Below are positions 2,843-42,049 of a stretch of 44,856 bases of DNA, in pieces. The notes beneath the pieces were generated by a model that was given only the letters and a program-made list of their open reading frames with translations, did no database searches and was not told the origin of the DNA. Made by a program: the position numbers and the translations under genes. The stretch lies in the IMG/VR virus record IMGVR_UViG_3300035698_002097, positions 1-44,856 of that record; one strand, written 5' to 3'. This DNA comes from a virus. Within the stretch, counting starts at the first letter, position 1; each line of letters starts with the position of its first letter.

Positions 2843-2880
2843 GATGTAAATGTAATCTATTCCTTATTAAGAACCTATAT

Positions 2881-3051
2881 TTATAAGCGTTTCTCTAGTA
2901 CCTTCATAAACTTACTGCAGTCGTCATTATACAAATACCCTGCACCGTAATTGGAATCAATCAGCTCAATACGTTCAGTATTTACAGGCGTGTAATACCA
3001 TGTATAATATTTTAGCCTCGCCAGGTGCTCCTTATGCTTTGCTATTTCCAT
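2881..3051 (-). CDS. Small hypothetical protein, 56 aa
   Basis: A 56-residue frame from the ATG at 3049-3051 to TAA at 2881-2883. The product is rich in Tyr and Lys and carries a YLYNDDCSKF segment close to the C-terminus. The start shares one base with the stop of the membrane-protein gene upstream. No function recognised. Confidence 0.5.
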   Translation of the reverse strand: MEIAKHKEHLARLKYYTWYYTPVNTERIELIDSNYGAGYLYNDDCSKFMKVLEKRL

Positions 3052-3251
3052 TATGGTAAAATTAAATATACAAAGTTACATAATAATAATATAGAGGATG
3101 ATATAAATGCAAATAAGCACAAATAGTGCATAAATCCAGCGTCATAAAGATCTTCGTATCTCCCATTTATTCTCCTGCATATATATACTATATTCGGTAT
3201 AATGGTAACTATAGTTAGAGTTATCCAAATTGTTAAAATTATTTTATCCAT
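3051..3251 (-). CDS. Small two-helix membrane protein
   Basis: A 66-residue protein with two hydrophobic segments, about residues 4-24 and 44-65, separated by a polar loop containing RRINGRYEDLYDAG. It is likely an inner-membrane hairpin. It follows the replication protein gene directly and may be coupled to it. It could be an exclusion or holin-like protein, but it sits far from the lysis genes and I do not assign a role. Confidence 0.5.
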   Translation of the reverse strand: MDKIILTIWITLTIVTIIPNIVYICRRINGRYEDLYDAGFMHYLCLFAFISSSILLLCNFVYLILP

Positions 3252-4126: not shown

Positions 4127-5341
4127 TTAACTTAGTTCCTTTTCGCGTTTTCTTTTGTGTTTTATGTCTAGGTATTTAGAGTAAGCCTCTGACTTAGGCT
4201 GTGTTAATCCCAATCCCTTACACCACCAATCATTCCGCAATAATACCTTACACATTCTACGATAAGATGGAACCCAATAAGCGTTCTCTAAAACTAGCGG
4301 TGCTTCATCTGGGATACCGTCTTCATATCCTCTCTTTTTCCATCCCTGTACAAAAGTTCTAAAGCGTGAAATATAATGATCTCTAGTTATTTTAGGCATA
4401 GTGTTAAATATCAATTTAAAAAATGATTCGTAAGTGTGTCCAGGTGGTTTATTAATCTTATATGATCCAGATATATTACCAGACTCACGAACGTACATAG
4501 CTCCAGAATTAACACCGTTTACTCTTACAAGTAATTTATACCAAGTCTTTGGCTCTATGATATGATATAGCCATAAACCCCTTTTTTGATCTGCTCCGTA
4601 TGGCTGGCATAATCTCTGTTGAGATAAAGGAACGCCGGCTTTATTCATTAGATCATATACTTTATTATGGCACTTATCTTTAAACTTAGCATGATAAACC
4701 CAAATATCACGAGTTTTAAAGTCATAAATAGGATAAGCATTATAAGTATTTTTAGTTATCTGAGTTGTATATCTCTTATCTTTGTATGTTCGTTTTTTGA
4801 TAGTGCAAATAGTTCTAAATCTATTCAATGATTCATCAGCACGAATACCAATAAACCCGATTGCATCACCTTCACTGGCGTACCACTCACCAAATAAAAC
4901 TACAAACTCCTCAAACTCCATACCATCCTCAAAGAAATCAAAGAAATCTAATTCACTTATGCAATTCTTTGGAAGATCACGAACCCATAAATCTTTTTTC
5001 TCTGAATCCCAACACTTCCAGCGCGGTTCAAAATTACTAACTGCATTTGATAGCGATATAGGTAAACATACCCAATATGGTATAATGTTATCTTTGTAAA
5101 TTTCGTACATTTCTTCAGCATGTGCAATAGTTTCGGTATATTGCGCCTCTAGGTCAATTAATAAAACACCTACTTTCCTATTCCTTTTTATTGCCTCTTC
5201 CATTACAATGTGAAGCATAACAGAACTATCCTTCCCACCCGAAAAAGAAACGTATATTTGTTCAAACTCATCGAATACAAATTTCACCCTTTTCTTGGCT
5301 TCGGTAAGCACGTCCGACCCTATATATTTTTTAGTTTCCAA
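4127..5341 (-). CDS. DUF3440 PAPS-reductase-like protein (IbrA-like)
   Basis: A 404-residue protein of the adenine nucleotide alpha-hydrolase fold. The PP-loop SGGKDSS lies at residues 34-40 and would bind the phosphates of an adenylated or PAPS-type nucleotide. The C-terminal two thirds, with WLYHIIEPKTWYKLL and an aromatic-rich end, fit the DUF3440 group that includes IbrA. The start is TTG at 5339-5341: no ATG lies upstream before a stop, and the family begins at about this distance from the PP-loop. A ParB-like gene and a conserved small gene lie just upstream, the arrangement known for IbrA/IbrB pairs. The reaction is not established; a true assimilatory sulfate reductase is unlikely in this setting. 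Confidence 0.8.
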   Translation of the reverse strand: METKKYIGSDVLTEAKKRVKFVFDEFEQIYVSFSGGKDSSVMLHIVMEEAIKRNRKVGVLLIDLEAQYTETIAHAEEMYEIYKDNIIPYWVCLPISLSNAVSNFEPRWKCWDSEKKDLWVRDLPKNCISELDFFDFFEDGMEFEEFVVLFGEWYASEGDAIGFIGIRADESLNRFRTICTIKKRTYKDKRYTTQITKNTYNAYPIYDFKTRDIWVYHAKFKDKCHNKVYDLMNKAGVPLSQQRLCQPYGADQKRGLWLYHIIEPKTWYKLLVRVNGVNSGAMYVRESGNISGSYKINKPPGHTYESFFKLIFNTMPKITRDHYISRFRTFVQGWKKRGYEDGIPDEAPLVLENAYWVPSYRRMCKVLLRNDWWCKGLGLTQPKSEAYSKYLDIKHKRKREKELS

Positions 5342-12552: not shown

Positions 12553-13101
12553 TCATATAGTTACGTGTTTCCATGATTTATTTATATTTATACACGTTAT
12601 TGCCCCCCTTGTTACACCATGCTTTATTCCTAATAACCTATGTGAAGTGCCTTTTTTTAGTTCTTTTTTTATTTCTATAACCTGTTGTTCGTCCAATTTA
12701 GATAAATGTGATTTTGATCCATGCGGTGCAATTACTGATTTTATTAATCCGTGTTTTATTGCGTGTATAGTATTTTCACTATATGTTGCCCACTCTAAAT
12801 TAGATATATCATTATTGCCAACATTGCCATCCTTATGATTTATACATAGTTTATTTAATGGGTTTTCTATAAACGCATTTGCAATTAATTTATGTACTCT
12901 ATAGGTGTATGCATTGCCATTAACTGTAAGACTTGTTTTAGCATAGCCCTTGGTGTCGTTTGAGGGTTTCATTATTGTTTCCTTCTTATCGCTCCAATAT
13001 TTGCCTCTTTTAACTTTTCTGAAGCACGATTTCACTCGTCCCCAATTACTAACTTGATAATAACCCTCATAATCTTTAATGTCCCTAAATACTTCTACCA
13101 T
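12553..13101 (-). CDS. NUMOD4/HNH homing endonuclease
   Basis: A 182-residue protein with the layout of free-standing HNH homing nucleases. An N-terminal NUMOD4 segment (IKDYEGYYQVSNWGRVKS, residues 8-25) contacts DNA. The HNH core follows: YRVHKLIANAFIEN (68-81), LCINHKDGN (85-93) with the catalytic His, and NLEWAT (101-106). The last 60 residues hold a helix-turn-helix-like element (QVIEIKKELKKGTSHRLLG). The gene has its own promoter and a pseudoknotted leader shared with the GIY-YIG gene at 15277-15828, and lies directly after the exonuclease gene. It is a selfish element rather than a phage function. Confidence 0.9.
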   Translation of the reverse strand: MVEVFRDIKDYEGYYQVSNWGRVKSCFRKVKRGKYWSDKKETIMKPSNDTKGYAKTSLTVNGNAYTYRVHKLIANAFIENPLNKLCINHKDGNVGNNDISNLEWATYSENTIHAIKHGLIKSVIAPHGSKSHLSKLDEQQVIEIKKELKKGTSHRLLGIKHGVTRGAITCININKSWKHVTI

Positions 13102-13186
13102 AATAAAAAATCCTTATGCTTTCGCGATGACGGTCGCTACTCACACAAGGATTGTTAATGTTTTACTTTGAGTCCGTCACCCCATT
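13102..13186 (-). promoter_or_regulatory. Pseudoknotted leader of the HNH homing gene (copy 1)
   Basis: Transcript segments in order: P1a GTGACGG (13180-13174), P1b ACTC (13173-13170 complement region), 16-nt linker, P2 AATCCTT (13153-13147), 4 nt, P1b GAGT (13142-13139), 5-nt bulge, P1a CCGTCAT (13133-13127), 11 nt including GAAAG, P2 AAGGATT (13115-13109), 7 nt, ATG. P2 pairs with the ribosome-binding segment, so the fold should repress translation. P1a differs from the copy at 15829-15911 at most positions yet keeps pairing. Confidence 0.8.
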
Positions 13187-13192
13187 AAGAAT

Positions 13193-13224
13193 GCAAGTTA
13201 CAAAATATAATTGAAATAAACTAA
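13193..13224 (-). promoter_or_regulatory. Promoter of the HNH homing gene
   Basis: On the minus strand TTAG (13221-13224), 20 bases, then TAACTTGC (13193-13200). Both boxes are partial matches to TTTG and TAnnTTTG. The upstream box abuts the stop codon of the exonuclease gene at 13227. The same 15 bases, TATTTTGTAACTTGC, recur at 41990-42004. Confidence 0.45.
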
Positions 13225-13226
13225 TA

Positions 13227-14174
13227 TTAAGAAGGGTTTTTAATTTGATTAACTAAAAATTCCTGGTAGCTTTTATTAGATATTTTATACTGTTTCTTGC
13301 AGTTATTGCATTTCATATTACGCCTGATAACCCCCAATGGAGTTGAGTATGCTTTGTACATTTCCACGTCTTCACTAGCACATTCAGGACAATCATATTT
13401 ACCACCTCCCGTAAGTACTGCAAAGTTATTATTGTGTGTAATAAAGGGTGACATGATAAAGTAAACATCTTCTAAAAGTATTACGTCCCTTTCACAGTAT
13501 GAAATCATTTTAAGTAAATCCGGTTCGCTATTGTCTTCACATATTCTTTCCCACATTTCGAAGCCGTCATGCTCTTCTTTTCCTCCCACCCCAAAGAATG
13601 TACCTAAGTAGTCAAGTTTATTCGATGCGAAACTAAACGACGAACGCGCCTTTTTAAGCGTGTCTAAGGTTCTATAAGTAGGAAACATTAACACACCGTT
13701 CGCTATGCACCTGGTACGTATGAAACGAAGGTCAAAGCGGTCTCCATTGTGCCCGATCGCTTCGTCAGATTCTCCTATGATCTTAATGAACGCCTTTAGC
13801 ATTTCTTTTTCGCCCATTCTCCAATCTAACGTATGGACCTTATCTTCATATTGCCACTTATAGCTAATACAAATTATCTTCTTTTCGCTTATAATGTCTT
13901 TGGGATCGAAGTACTTTTTGAAGTTCTTTAACTGCCACGCCTTTATTTCTAGTTTGTAGTAACTTGTTTCAATGTCAAAGAATAGCCTTCGAATAGGTAT
14001 CTTCTTAGCCTCAATCTTTAGCCTGTTTCTTATTCTACTTACTTTGCGCCTTACTACATCTTGCTCATAATCTAATGCAAACTTATTAAGAACGTCCCTC
14101 GCTATTTGTGTGTTGTTAGGTGATTGTTCAAGTCGAACTTTGATAAATTCGGTAACTTGTTTTGGGTATTCCAT
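13227..14174 (-). CDS. DnaQ-like 3'-5' exonuclease with C-terminal zinc ribbon
   Basis: A 315-residue protein. The RNase H-like DEDD exonuclease core is complete: FFDIET (residues 65-70, first Asp and Glu), GHNGDRFDLRF (141-151, second Asp) and YCERDV (226-231, Tyr and last Asp, a DEDDy type). Residues 1-60 form a basic helix-turn-helix-like region, and four Cys at about 262, 265, 289 and 292 form a zinc ribbon. It resembles the exonuclease part of family B polymerases but no polymerase domain is present. It may trim DNA ends for the ERF annealing pathway or degrade host DNA. A 90-nt structured leader and a terminator lie upstream. Confidence 0.82.
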   Translation of the reverse strand: MEYPKQVTEFIKVRLEQSPNNTQIARDVLNKFALDYEQDVVRRKVSRIRNRLKIEAKKIPIRRLFFDIETSYYKLEIKAWQLKNFKKYFDPKDIISEKKIICISYKWQYEDKVHTLDWRMGEKEMLKAFIKIIGESDEAIGHNGDRFDLRFIRTRCIANGVLMFPTYRTLDTLKKARSSFSFASNKLDYLGTFFGVGGKEEHDGFEMWERICEDNSEPDLLKMISYCERDVILLEDVYFIMSPFITHNNNFAVLTGGGKYDCPECASEDVEMYKAYSTPLGVIRRNMKCNNCKKQYKISNKSYQEFLVNQIKNPS

Positions 14175-14200
14175 TTAATTAGTTTTTAGTTTATATTAAG

Positions 14201-14290
14201 AAGGTGCGCTTCGGGTCTTTCGGGGTTACTGCTTTAATGGAGGGTAACCCTTCCCTATTTCCATAATAATGCAGCTTCACTACGCACCTT
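14201..14290 (-). promoter_or_regulatory. Structured RNA leader of the exonuclease gene
   Basis: The element is closed by AAGGTGCG (14290-14283) pairing with CGCACCTT (14208-14201). Inside, CTGC (14274-14271) pairs with GCAG (14232-14229), enclosing a hairpin made of ATGG/CCAT and AGGG/CCCT. The hairpin loop GGGTTA is complementary to TAACCC (14228-14223) just after GCAG, giving a pseudoknot. The exonuclease ATG is 27 bases downstream. I cannot match it from memory to a named riboswitch class. Confidence 0.6.
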
Positions 14291-14312
14291 ATTTTGTTTT
14301 GATTAGCTTAAT

Positions 14313-14344
14313 AAAAAACCCATCGCGACTTTCGCCACGACGGG
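14313..14344 (-). terminator. Rho-independent terminator of the late operon
   Basis: On the minus strand CCCGTCGTGGC, a GAAA tetraloop and GTCGCGATGGG form an 11-bp stem with three G-U pairs, followed by six T residues. It lies after the last lysis-region gene (14442-14693) and before the structured leader of the exonuclease gene. It separates late from middle transcription, or acts as an attenuator. Confidence 0.9.
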
Positions 14345-14441
14345 CCAAACTAAAACTAATCAACTATGAAAAATCATTTGTAATATTACGAAAGTTCTTA
14401 TTAAGAAACAAACTAAATTAATGTTTACTCAGATTTAGACA

Positions 14442-15276: not shown

Positions 15277-15828
15277 TCACTTTTTTAATTTATTTGCTCT
15301 TCTTGTTTTCCATGCCTTAAGTGAAATTTCTCTAGCCAAATGCCTATCTCTCTCCCATCTTTTAGTCTGAGCAATACTTAATTTCTTTCTCTCCTCATCC
15401 GTATATATTCTACCCTTCTTAAATTTTGTTGGCATATTTTCAACATGCTCTTTACTTTTCTTCACGCCTAAAGAAGCCTTGCTTAATTTCTTTTTATGCT
15501 CTTCAGAAAAAACTGTTTTATATCTGTTTATTGATTTATTTTTACCCTTCTCAATAAATACAGTATTAAAATAAGGATTAAGGTTTTCTATATACCATAA
15601 TTCCTTTTCATTAAGCTCATTAGTAGTGCATTCAATTATAATCGAAAATTCAAGATCTGACTCCCCATATTCATTATAGTGCATTTGCATTTTTAATGAA
15701 TGATGTTTATTCAATCTTAAATCAGAGTAATGATGTATTTTTCTTTTGTGTAAACTGCATGACGCGCCTATATAATATTTCTCTTGATCTGAAATTGATT
15801 TAATAATATACACTCCACATTTTCCCAT
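15277..15828 (-). CDS. GIY-YIG homing endonuclease with NUMOD3 repeats
   Basis: A 183-residue protein. The N-terminal GIY-YIG nuclease has GVYII (5-9), YYIGAS (18-23), the catalytic Arg near 29 and Glu76 (NEKELWYI), followed by NPYFN. The C-terminal half has NUMOD3-type DNA-binding repeats (FSEEHKKKLSKASLGVKKS and a second copy around TDEERKKLSIAQ) and a Lys/Arg-rich tail. It is inserted between a holin-like gene and the endolysin and has its own promoter and pseudoknotted leader, the same leader type as the HNH gene at 12553-13101, although the proteins are unrelated. Confidence 0.92.
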   Translation of the reverse strand: MGKCGVYIIKSISDQEKYYIGASCSLHKRKIHHYSDLRLNKHHSLKMQMHYNEYGESDLEFSIIIECTTNELNEKELWYIENLNPYFNTVFIEKGKNKSINRYKTVFSEEHKKKLSKASLGVKKSKEHVENMPTKFKKGRIYTDEERKKLSIAQTKRWERDRHLAREISLKAWKTRRANKLKK

Positions 15829-15911
15829 AATATAAAATCCTTACACTTTCAGAGGTCGTAGCTCTTACTCATGCAAGGATTGTTAATGTTTTTAATTGAG
15901 TCTACGACACC
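15829..15911 (-). promoter_or_regulatory. Pseudoknotted leader of the GIY-YIG gene (copy 2)
   Basis: Same order and spacing as copy 1: P1a GTCGTAG (15908-15902), P1b ACTC (15901-15898), 16-nt linker, P2 AATCCTT (15881-15875), 4 nt, P1b GAGT (15870-15867), 5-nt bulge, P1a CTACGAC (15861-15855), 12 nt including GAAAG, P2 AAGGATT (15842-15836), 7 nt, ATG. The predicted transcript starts just before P1a. The fold would hide the ribosome-binding segment. Confidence 0.82.
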
Positions 15912-15917
15912 CAATAA

Positions 15918-15949
15918 CAAAGATAGTATTTTATATCGAAGTAACACAA
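15918..15949 (-). promoter_or_regulatory. Promoter of the GIY-YIG gene
   Basis: On the minus strand TTG (15947-15949) is followed after 21 bases by TATCTTTG (15918-15925), a perfect TAnnTTTG. The TTG starts directly after the stop codon of the holin-like gene. The transcript would begin near 15911, at the base of the leader pseudoknot. Confidence 0.65.
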
Positions 15950-20104: not shown

Positions 20105-20120
20105 GTCTTTATATTTTATG

Positions 20121-20152
20121 TAAAGTTATTAATATTAGCTTAATAATGCAAA
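20121..20152 (-). promoter_or_regulatory. Late promoter in the tail module
   Basis: On the minus strand TTTG (20149-20152), exactly 20 bases, then TAACTTTA (20121-20128). The 11 bases TAACTTTACAT recur at the promoter-like sites at 34507 and 39803. It would drive the genes from 20104 down to the terminator at 14313. Confidence 0.75.
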
Positions 20153-20153
20153 A

Positions 20154-21371
20154 TTATGTTATAGCCTCCTGATCATTTACCCAATCCATAGAACCGTTAT
20201 TAAATGTCAGTCTTAATGTCCCTGTGTCGAATGTGTCCCAATCTATTGCTGTATCTATGTTTCCGACGTCAGGTGAATACTCATTTCCCACCTCGTCAGT
20301 GATTGTAATGGTATCGTGCATCTTTAGATATTGTAATCCCGAATACATCGACCGCGAAACATAATCTACTATGCTAAATTTAGGAGTTACATTTATCTGT
20401 TCTGCAGAGAACAATCCGTTTATCTCTTCGCCTATCTCTGACACTTCATCTGATGGTGTGTTCATTCTTGTTTCAAGGTAAACGCGCTGTGCAAAACCAC
20501 CCGTAGCGTAAAGAATATCATTGCCCTCGGATTGCCTTAGATCGTCTGTGTTTGAAAATTCTAGACTTATAAAGTCGCCGCGTGTATTTCTTAGAAAAAT
20601 TTGACATATCCAATTTGTATCAGTAGTATTAAATATTCTAAAAGTATTACTTGTACTTAATTCAGAATCTTTAGTTGTAGTCAAAACAACATTATTAGCC
20701 CCCGCTGCCAATAGAACCGTATTAGATATAGCTGATGCTGTGTCGTCGTTTATACGTACTGACGGAGCCTCTCCGGAGTTAAGTGCCAAACTAACACGCA
20801 AATTAAATTTTTCACCTGCTTTAAATGATAATGTAGACAAAGATCCGCCTATTGAATTGCTAGACGCAGCCTTTGCTACAGAAGTGGTTGTTCTGGCGGC
20901 TACCCTTGGCCCGATAACGCTAAAGACATCATAATTTTCAACCCATCCCGTTGGTGTTATTAAATTAGGAAGTATGTCTTTTACTATAAAATGCTCAGAA
21001 TAAAAAACATTATAAGAGTCCTTTATCTCAATATAATAAACGCCGTATGGAAGTTGGTCACTTTTTGGAGTCCCATTATTATATTCAAATTGTCCCCCGT
21101 TGTATTGAATATAATCATAGCTAGTAAAGGAAATTATACCAACGCCAGACGTTCCTACGCTTGCTGTAGATATGAAATATGCTGATACATCTGTTTTATT
21201 GCCACTACAGTCTACTATATTAATATCACTTATTACGCTTGTATTGTGTGACCTTCTAATCTGAAAAGGCAAGAATCTATTTCGTGGACATACTCTTATA
21301 AAAGCCGTGTTACTCCTATTAGCGTCCTGCATCGCCGTTGCTGTGTAAAATGGGAATGTTGTATTAGTCAT
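20154..21371 (-). CDS. Minor tail protein
   Basis: A 405-residue beta-rich protein beginning MTNTTFPFYTATAMQDANRS. Residues 1-130 look like one sandwich domain (YGVYYIEIKDSYNVFYSEHF), residues 140-270 like a second jelly-roll (FKAGEKFNLRVSLALNSGE). The C-terminal part has QRVYLETRMNTPSDEVSEIG and a terminal WDTFDTGTLRLTF. It follows the distal-tail-like gene with an 8-base overlap, as tail-tip genes do in siphoviruses. No enzymatic motif is seen. Confidence 0.55.
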   Translation of the reverse strand: MTNTTFPFYTATAMQDANRSNTAFIRVCPRNRFLPFQIRRSHNTSVISDINIVDCSGNKTDVSAYFISTASVGTSGVGIISFTSYDYIQYNGGQFEYNNGTPKSDQLPYGVYYIEIKDSYNVFYSEHFIVKDILPNLITPTGWVENYDVFSVIGPRVAARTTTSVAKAASSNSIGGSLSTLSFKAGEKFNLRVSLALNSGEAPSVRINDDTASAISNTVLLAAGANNVVLTTTKDSELSTSNTFRIFNTTDTNWICQIFLRNTRGDFISLEFSNTDDLRQSEGNDILYATGGFAQRVYLETRMNTPSDEVSEIGEEINGLFSAEQINVTPKFSIVDYVSRSMYSGLQYLKMHDTITITDEVGNEYSPDVGNIDTAIDWDTFDTGTLRLTFNNGSMDWVNDQEAIT

Positions 21372-34491: not shown

Positions 34492-34506
34492 TACCTTATT
34501 TTTATG

Positions 34507-34538
34507 TAAAGTTAGTTATTATTTGTTATTTATAATAA
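34507..34538 (-). promoter_or_regulatory. Late promoter after the capsid terminator
   Basis: On the minus strand TAACTTTA lies at 34507-34514, followed by CAT; the 11 bases TAACTTTACAT are the same as at 20121 and 39803. The -33 position 20 bases upstream is TTAT, a weak match. It lies between the terminator at 34562-34592 and the gene at 34491. Confidence 0.6.
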
Positions 34539-34561
34539 TTTTAAATAGAGTTTTTTCAAAC

Positions 34562-34592
34562 AAAAATAGGGCGGCCGATTTACCGACCACCC
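34562..34592 (-). terminator. Rho-independent terminator after the major capsid gene
   Basis: On the minus strand GGGTGGTCGG, a TAAA loop and TCGGCCGCCC form a 10-bp stem with three G-U pairs, followed by TATTTTTG. It lies 22 bases after the capsid stop codon and would hold down expression of the genes beyond, as expected if capsid is needed in excess. Confidence 0.85.
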
Positions 34593-34614
34593 CATTCATA
34601 TAATAAAAACTACC

Positions 34615-39772: not shown

Positions 39773-39802
39773 ATCTATAGATTTTTAAGTTATTCGAACA
39801 TG

Positions 39803-39834
39803 TAAAGTTAAGTATAATGATTCTAAATAACAAA
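39803..39834 (-). promoter_or_regulatory. Late promoter of the head module
   Basis: On the minus strand TTTG (39831-39834), exactly 20 bases, then TAACTTTA (39803-39810) followed by CAT. It lies between the tRNA terminator and the virion protein gene and shares the TAACTTTACAT core with two other late sites. Confidence 0.78.
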
Positions 39835-39870
39835 TCTGTTTGTTTTATACGTTAATAATATTACAGACAT

Positions 39871-39903
39871 AAAAAAACCACACGCCAAATTAATGACGTG
39901 TGG
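39871..39903 (-). terminator. Rho-independent terminator after the tRNA
   Basis: On the minus strand CCACACGTC and GGCGTGTGG form a 9-bp stem with one T-G pair around an eight-base loop, followed by seven T residues. It begins three bases after the tRNA 3' end and closes the terminase-glycosyltransferase-tRNA transcript. Confidence 0.92.
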
Positions 39904-39906
39904 TTG

Positions 39907-39979
39907 TTGCGAGACTGGGACTTGAACCCAGAACCGGAGCTTATGAGACTCCTGAGTTAACCATTTTCTCCATCTCGCA
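39907..39979 (-). tRNA. tRNA with anticodon CAU (Met elongator or Ile2)
   Basis: A 73-nt cloverleaf. The acceptor stem TGCGAGA/TCTCGCA pairs over seven bases with discriminator A73. The D-stem is GAG/CTC. The anticodon stem GGAGT/GCTCC holds the loop CTCATAA with anticodon CAT. The T-arm CTGGG-TTCAAGT-CCCAG is perfect and the variable loop has four bases. Position 1-72 is a pair (T-A), so it is not an initiator tRNA. CCA is not encoded. It may be charged with Met, or with Ile if position 34 is modified to lysidine. It lies two bases after the stop of the GT2 gene and is followed by a terminator. Confidence 0.95.
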
Positions 39980-39981
39980 AT

Positions 39982-41798: not shown

Positions 41799-41977
41799 AA
41801 GTACTTTTCAATAAGTTCAAATAAGAAGTCGTCTGGTAGTAATATCCACCCTGCACCGATTGACTCTGAATAGGCCCTCCATGCCTTGTCGCACTCTGAT
41901 AGTGTCGCGCTGTAGTTGTTGTCAAACAATACGCTCTGTATTCGTTTACAGTCGTCAATGTAGTCTAGTCGTGTCAT
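41795..41977 (-). CDS. Small hypothetical protein, 60 aa
   Basis: A helical, acidic protein beginning MTRLDYIDDCKRIQSVLFDN and ending DDFLFELIEKYL, with two Trp. It overlaps the GT9-like gene as a four-base overlap, so it is co-translated. I do not recognise the family. It is the first gene after the terminase gene and may have its own promoter (41990-41997). Confidence 0.5.
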   Translation of the reverse strand: MTRLDYIDDCKRIQSVLFDNNYSATLSECDKAWRAYSESIGAGWILLPDDFLFELIEKYL

Positions 41978-41989
41978 TGTTTTTTGTTT

Positions 41990-41997
41990 GCAAGTTA
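41990..41997 (-). promoter_or_regulatory. Promoter-like -7 element
   Basis: TAACTTGC on the minus strand, within a 15-base segment (41990-42004) identical to the promoter region of the HNH homing gene at 13193-13207. No good -33 element is found at 20 bases; a TTG lies 15 bases upstream. Low confidence as a promoter by itself. Confidence 0.3.
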
Positions 41998-42049
41998 CAA
42001 AATAATTCGATTCAATACGCTATAATTGTGTTATTTATAATAAATTTAA

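Follow-up and report, generated by a model that had tools for sequence, protein, structure and literature searches.

The leaders of two unrelated homing endonuclease genes (HEGs) of a phage share one RNA architecture, whose structure we describe with confidence, in which the loops of two adjacent hairpins kiss. The leaders are best explained as members of an undescribed class of 5' leader RNA that is widespread in phages of Bacteroidota. Architecture, covariation, promoter position, enrichment of a U-run, and presence before HEGs as well as other phage genes are all established from sequence comparison. The module would escape sequence searches and single-family RNA searches, since complementarity is kept while the stems and loops themselves vary freely.

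The two leaders of the window

The window, that is the whole stretch of DNA analyzed, covers a virus record of 44,856 bases with a repeat of 127 nt at its ends. The closest matches of its portal and exonuclease proteins come from phages infecting Parabacteroides, Bacteroides, Croceibacter, Elizabethkingia and Flavobacterium, and the phage therefore most probably infects one of the Bacteroidota. The two HEGs and their leaders are listed in Table 1. When relatives of these genes were sought in viral contigs, none could be confirmed for the GIY-YIG gene, and a leader of the kissing-hairpin kind was seen at none of the 44 loci found for the HNH gene.

Table 1. Coordinates of the two homing endonuclease genes and of the elements of their leaders in the window.
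Feature	Position	Strand	Details	Basis
NUMOD4-HNH HEG	12553..13101	-	182 aa	Pfam NUMOD4 E 6e-10, HNH_3 E 9.8e-7
Leader 1	13186-13102	-	upstream of NUMOD4-HNH gene	
Putative -7-like promoter element, leader 1	13193..13200	-	TAACTTGC, imperfect TAnnTTTG match	sequence reading
Hairpin A, leader 1	13170..13182	-	GGGU 13182-13179 / ACUC 13173-13170	sequence reading, descriptor match
Hairpin B, leader 1	13109..13153	-	P2 13153-13143/13119-13109 (11 bp); GAGUA 13142-13138 / GAAA 13123-13120; P3 13137-13134/13127-13124; loop CCGUCA 13133-13128	MFE; model R1 match 13194-13103, 51.1 bits, E 7e-8
U-run, leader 1	13105..13110	-	UUUUUU; first 2 bases within P2, end 3 nt 5' of AUG (13101)	sequence reading
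GIY-YIG HEG	15277..15828	-	183 aa	Pfam GIY-YIG E 6.4e-5, above curated cut-off
Leader 2	15911-15829	-	upstream of GIY-YIG gene	
-7 promoter element, leader 2	15918..15925	-	TATCTTTG	Bacteroidota consensus TAnnTTTG (PMC6847099)
Hairpin A, leader 2	15898..15912	-	GGGU-[GUCGUAG]-ACUC, 7-nt loop 15908-15902	sequence reading; present in MFE
Hairpin B, leader 2	15836..15881	-	P2 15881-15871/15846-15836; GAGUA 15870-15866 / GAAA 15850-15847; P3 15865-15862/15854-15851; loop CUACGAC 15861-15855	MFE; model R1 match 15924-15830, 40.3 bits, E 1e-5
Short U-run, leader 2	15834..15837	-	UUUU; first 2 bases within P2, then AUAUU-AUG	sequence reading

Sequence and MFE folding give both leaders the same order of elements from 5' to 3', namely hairpin A, hairpin B, U-run and AUG. 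Hairpin B comprises an 11-bp P2, a GAGUA/GAAA internal loop, a 4-bp P3 and an apical loop of 6 or 7 nt, and the MFE fold contains it in both leaders; folded alone, it reaches -18.4 kcal/mol in leader 1 (z -5.3) and -16.1 kcal/mol in leader 2 (z -5.0), with none of 200 shuffles equally stable in either case. Its loop can pair with the loop region of hairpin A (CCGUCA/UGACGG in leader 1, CUACGAC/GUCGUAG in leader 2); the U of the leader 1 strand UGACGG (13179-13174) must choose between stem and kissing contact. TAnnTTTG precedes hairpin A and, by the rule of a G at -5 (PMC6847099), the predicted transcript includes this hairpin. The string TTTTGTAACTTGC recurs upstream of the terminase gene, within 41799-42049.

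Comparison of the two leaders revealed extensive covariation. All four P3 pairs are altered on both sides (GCGA/UCGC in leader 1, AGAG/CUCU in leader 2), and the upper P2 carries two double changes (GTGT/GCAT versus GCAT/GTGT). The strands named P1a in a preliminary description of this DNA (GTGACGG/CCGTCAT and GTCGTAG/CTACGAC) are indeed complementary, with double changes in four of seven pairs, and represent the loop-loop contact. AATCCTT/AAGGATT and the block AAAACATTAACAATCCTTG are the same in both leaders, a 19-nt block being identical; overall, the spacer and the lower P2 are conserved to the letter, while P3 and the kissing pair are almost wholly changed.

The preliminary description had correctly recognized a conserved, covarying RNA structure before two unrelated HEGs, but both the fold that it drew and its reading of that fold require correction. 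It noted the identity of the AATCCTT/AAGGATT strands, but gave P2 7 bp instead of 11 and overlooked P3 above it. Its P1b (ACTC/GAGT) finds no support in the relatives, FCL-2 included, which have GAGUA without ACTC: GAGT is a piece of the GAGUA loop, which is conserved, and ACTC fits better as the 3' strand of hairpin A. Since the P1a strands sit in loops A and B and P1b is unsupported, the two hairpins meet through their loops, A kissing B, in place of the H-type pseudoknot between P1 and P2 that had been proposed. A stem TTAATG/CATTAA was also considered as P1 and dropped in favor of GGGU/ACUC, because the leader 2 transcript probably begins 3' of its 5' arm.

Other features were observed in the window. 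A large predicted structure (14175-14300, minus strand) lies upstream of the exonuclease gene (13227-14174), with a closing stem AAGGTGCG/CGCACCTT and an inner GGGTTAC/GTAACCC hairpin, and a separate terminator-like hairpin is found at 14310-14345; the intergenic stretch 5' of the exonuclease gene folds at -70.5 kcal/mol and has no Rfam match at threshold. Moreover, AACTTTACAT recurs upstream of genes (20105-20153, 34492-34614 and 39773-39981 (-)), possibly as the phage's own or a late promoter motif, and positions 968-1231 hold a 12-nt tandem repeat (CCGTAGCCGTTG-like) within an ORF, encoding a repetitive peptide.

Relatives in other phages

A pattern containing only TCCTT, GAGTA, GAAA and AAGGA, run on viral contigs, returned ten genuine relatives, with kissing loops UGGUGG/CCACCA and covarying P3 stems (GUUG/CAAC, GAUG/CAUC). 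A covariance model (R1) was built from eight IMG/VR relatives with the window left out, and ranked the two window leaders first, at the scores of Table 1, with the next match at 18.0 bits; its four anchor pieces derive from the window and are non-independent, while loops, P3, hairpin A and flanks are independent. As a model from other viruses alone ranks both leaders first, they represent more than a chance resemblance. In the relatives' own records, R1 detected diverged copies, one 5' of an HNH HEG (L275) and one 5' of a gene similar to the type that we take to be DUF6291 (L276).

Other searches were less productive. A 15-mer was uninformative as a marker, its examined matches in viral contigs being due to chance, and patterns fixed on P2 alone gave chance matches only. 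A pattern search of genome contigs yielded 62 matches, none with the architecture; R1 found nothing in 300 genomes of a Mesonia genome's family, which is weak evidence of absence given the strict filters and narrow model; and blastn of the leaders against phages returned only short unrelated pieces (E 0.7-10).

The earlier suggestion that the RNA belongs to no named class was borne out: at the gathering threshold of Rfam 15, the window gives only a tRNA and four relatives give no match, and a reading of the window as a group I intron or HEARO-type element likewise has no Rfam match. Below threshold, RF03535 (TEG147, from S. aureus) matches leader 1 (E 7e-5, 31.6 bits versus a gathering score of 56.1) and resembles its hairpin B in stem, GAGUA/GAAA loop, upper stem and U-run. 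TEG147, however, is described as an sRNA of about 60 nt and, its model matching neither leader 2 nor FCL-2 nor L190, it was rejected as the family of the leaders. A literature search, in which subscription journals were thinly covered, retrieved no description of such a leader class.

A descriptor consisting of hairpin A, hairpin B, loop complementarity of at least 6 nt and a U-run located additional leaders, unrelated in stems and loops, in the same phages. It also located leaders in isolates, before gp54 of Flavobacterium phage FCL-2, before gp007 of Cellulophaga phage phi18:3, and before both HEG gp32 and the gp35-37 operon of Flavobacterium phage tooticki6-1. Many uncultivated viruses share the architecture, just 3' of the Bacteroidota promoter TAnnTTTG, and the genes behind the leader include HEGs, DUF6291-type, replisome-organiser and primase genes, among others. 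When the descriptor was anchored on the -7 box TAnnTTTG and matches were made non-redundant, 16 reached a score of at least 17, versus 1 in reversed sequence, and 29 versus 6 reached at least 15; below 15 it becomes noisy (46 versus 25 at 13). In phi18:3 (L281), we additionally observed two similar intergenic hairpins at 20375 (+) and 22488 (+), of the form TTAG..GTAGCGA..CTAA, whose loop is complementary to a stretch downstream.

The cleanest evidence for complementary tips in other phages comes from an unbiased test on 46 non-redundant DUF6291-type genes, in which the hairpin nearest the ATG was picked by energy alone and its loop compared with the upstream 75 nt. Complementarity of at least 6 nt was present in 23 of the 46, against 3.8 with permuted partners (maximum 9 in 500), and the mean match length was 5.30 nt against 3.69 (sd 0.15). 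Genes without it were often operon-internal.

The position of the structure relative to the promoter was also measured. From TTTG, the kissing strand starts at a median distance of 12 nt with a narrow spread (control 22), and hairpin B ends at a median of 92 nt. Hairpin A accordingly begins near the expected transcript start, as it would if the kissed hairpins shielded the mRNA 5' end from nucleases and the U-run served as a spacer and open landing site for ribosomes, which would also suit a structure kept without sequence. We nevertheless regard such a stabilizing role as quite unlikely: a plain 5' hairpin would suffice for it, the loop complementarity with a separate kissing pair per gene would be unexplained, and a U-run right behind a long stem risks termination.

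Internal loops of the AGUA/GAA type recur in unrelated stems (window, L201, FCL-2, L340, L322, L315), and a second set, GGAU/UGAA, occurs with strands swapped (UGAA/GGAU) in two leaders, L330 and L384; the swap points to a structural bend, as far as sequence can tell, rather than to a ligand pocket. Many loop pairs are of the form CUNNNAC versus GUNNNAG, that of window leader 2 included. The response to a ligand envisaged earlier finds no counterpart here, as no sequence is common across leaders except for the interchangeable internal loop. A ligand-sensing riboswitch would fit the complex fold, the recurrence of GAGUA/GAAA in unrelated leaders and the weak similarity to TEG147; with no conserved pocket, an exchangeable internal loop and unrelated downstream genes, it appears extremely improbable. 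The guanidine-II riboswitch also has two hairpins in loop-loop contact, but it binds guanidine through conserved ACGR loops, whereas the loops of these leaders vary freely.

Within one phage, no loop pair was common to two of the leaders compared (window, L195, L201, L202, tooticki6-1). As loop pairs are private, and P3 and the kissing pair of the window leaders changed while spacer and lower P2 stayed identical, the sequences suggest selection against cross-kissing. Distinct loops could also be expected if terminated leader RNAs of about 90 nt kissed nascent copies and stopped their transcription in trans, as a plasmid- or P4-like dosage or immunity control; loops of 6-8 nt, largely fully paired, have the geometry of ColE1 RNA I/RNA II. 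In ColE1 and in TAR/TAR*, loops of 6-7 nt pair fully with each other, as here, but the partners described here are adjacent in one leader, and intramolecular kissing over 20-40 nt would outcompete pairing in trans. A separate antisense transcript was not seen either, and we consider control in trans very improbable.

Leaders carried with homing endonuclease genes

We surveyed NUMOD4-HNH genes of Bacteroidota phages, counting those with an upstream region of their own. HNH HEGs with the leader were found in L195, L381, L275, L304, L202 and tooticki6-1, with varied loop pairs. Phages tooticki6-1 and filifjonk9-1 are identical as far as the stop codon that ends the gene preceding the HEG; past that stop, tooticki6-1 has promoter, leader and HEG, then a diverged single-strand-binding gene, whereas filifjonk9-1 continues at once with its own single-strand-binding gene. 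As promoter, leader and HEG are absent from filifjonk9-1 as one block, this genome comparison indicates that HEG and leader move together, at least in tooticki6-1. Carriage by selfish genes, part of the original proposal, is in this respect supported, but the leader is not specific to HEGs, since other gene types have it too.

Three further kinds of sequence were noted before HNH genes. A second leader type precedes NUMOD4-HNH genes in L392 (~4770-4865 (+)) and L293 (~2850-2945 (+)): TCGTAG or CGGTG, lying upstream, pairs with a hairpin loop further downstream, CGATTCTTTAAC and ATGCAAA are conserved, and the U-run is lacking. This type may represent a related class in which nucleotides are conserved. 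The HNH leader of L367 (~3040-3160 (+)) has an outer stem CCCGACA/TGTCGGG, a more complex interior, and an upstream CTTATTCGTT nearly complementary to an internal AACGGATAAG. Finally, AACGGGGAAAGC...AATCCCGTGCTAA-like sequences upstream of the HNH gene in L132, L142 and L143 resemble, by eye, group I intron P/Q elements, and introns may thus encode the HNH genes in question.

In function, the closest precedent is the hairpin that hides the ribosome-binding site of T4-type HEGs (I-TevI, segB, Aeh1 mobE), from which the leaders differ in fold, host rules and gene range. In both, a structured leader abuts the HEG start codon, and in the T4 type it is thought to delay expression; there, a true Shine-Dalgarno (SD) sequence is hidden, and late transcripts escape because their promoter is located at the hairpin (PMC2988022, PMC3014915). 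In the leaders described here, by contrast, a buried SD used by the host is missing, two hairpins kiss, the predicted promoter stands before the whole structure, a U-run is present and non-HEG genes are also served.

Candidate modes of action

Folding had originally been proposed to hide the SD-like AAGGA from the ribosome. An SD-like 4-mer at -20 to -5 occurs in 3 of 60 window genes against 2.7 expected from shuffled leaders, and the window gene leaders are A-rich in the manner usual for Bacteroidota. According to published work, Bacteroidia ribosomes do not recognize SD sequences (PMC9976891, PMC6847099); on that statement, and with SD use in the window not above chance, SD masking is untenable. 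Hiding of AAGGA is also unsupported as the mechanism of the class, as many of its leaders lack it. A steric block of the start region by the leader is possible, and a translational switch could operate on this basis, a kissing-locked hairpin B barring the 30S subunit without termination. Hairpin B mostly ends 7-25 nt from the ATG, and only about 7 nt from it in several leaders; structure near the start codon tunes initiation in F. johnsoniae (PMC6847099), and T4-type HEGs are repressed in such a manner (PMC2988022). We consider this switch unlikely, however, since SD masking itself fails, the AUG lies 25-50 nt away in several leaders, and the U-run, together with the terminator-like, GC-rich stem base and U-tract of many leaders, would be left unexplained.

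The 7 nt behind hairpin B contain 4.55 T on average, where the composition of the leaders themselves predicts 2.26, although a strong U-run is missing from some members of the class. Since a long stem followed by a U-run about 90 nt behind a promoter has the anatomy of an intrinsic terminator, the leader may be a promoter-proximal attenuator, i.e., an intrinsic-terminator hairpin clamped by a kissing loop in cis and carried with HEGs as a cassette, a proposal that in our judgment stands at an even chance. Stable stem and U-run are found in the class as a whole; they are weaker in window leader 2 (UUUU), where termination could be weak because the U-run is short and the stem A/U-rich.

In such an attenuator, hairpin A would be transcribed first, right behind the host-type promoter, followed by hairpin B, with its long stem, rigid purine-rich internal loop and an apical loop of 6-8 nt that would kiss loop A. 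Hairpin B and the U-run would form an intrinsic terminator near the promoter and, the AUG being close, might also impede ribosome loading. The kissing contact would lock the terminator state in cis and keep expression low, until some change under phage control, be it an antitermination factor, RNA remodelling or high template number, allows the polymerase to pass. A private loop pair for each leader of a phage would avoid cross-kissing, and HEGs bringing promoter and leader as one cassette would plug into phage timing. No alternative antiterminator pairing or trans factor was identified for the leaders.

A phage promoter-proximal terminator is exemplified by lambda tR' behind pR'. Like it and other intrinsic-terminator attenuators, the leaders combine a promoter, a short leader and a stem with U-run before the first gene; they differ in the purine internal loop and cis kissing partner of the terminator hairpin, and in that an antiterminator pairing was not found. 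In HK022, put RNA likewise places two hairpins at the 5' end of a phage transcript, and the leaders might similarly bind the transcribing polymerase so that downstream terminators are ignored, which would agree with two hairpins opening phage transcripts directly behind a promoter. The function of put depends on specific bases, and put has conserved bases and, to our knowledge, has not been described as loop-loop kissed. The leaders conserve no nucleotides outside the interchangeable internal loop, and their second hairpin itself has a terminal U-run, which makes antitermination of this kind improbable.

On a tentative, more general view, to which we give somewhat less than an even chance, a sequence-free RNA module, a terminator hairpin clamped by a gene-specific kissing loop, would gate many transcription units in Bacteroidota phages, and HEGs would ship a private, orthogonal copy of it, inheriting phage timing wherever they home. 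The control of gene timing in these phages is largely uncharted, and their hosts rely on different promoters and disregard SD sequences. A module of shape and not of sequence, present in isolates whose hosts can be cultured (Flavobacterium sp. LMO6/LMO9, F. columnare, Cellulophaga baltica), offers an entry point into this control, and stand-alone homing endonucleases may carry their own regulation with them as a cassette.
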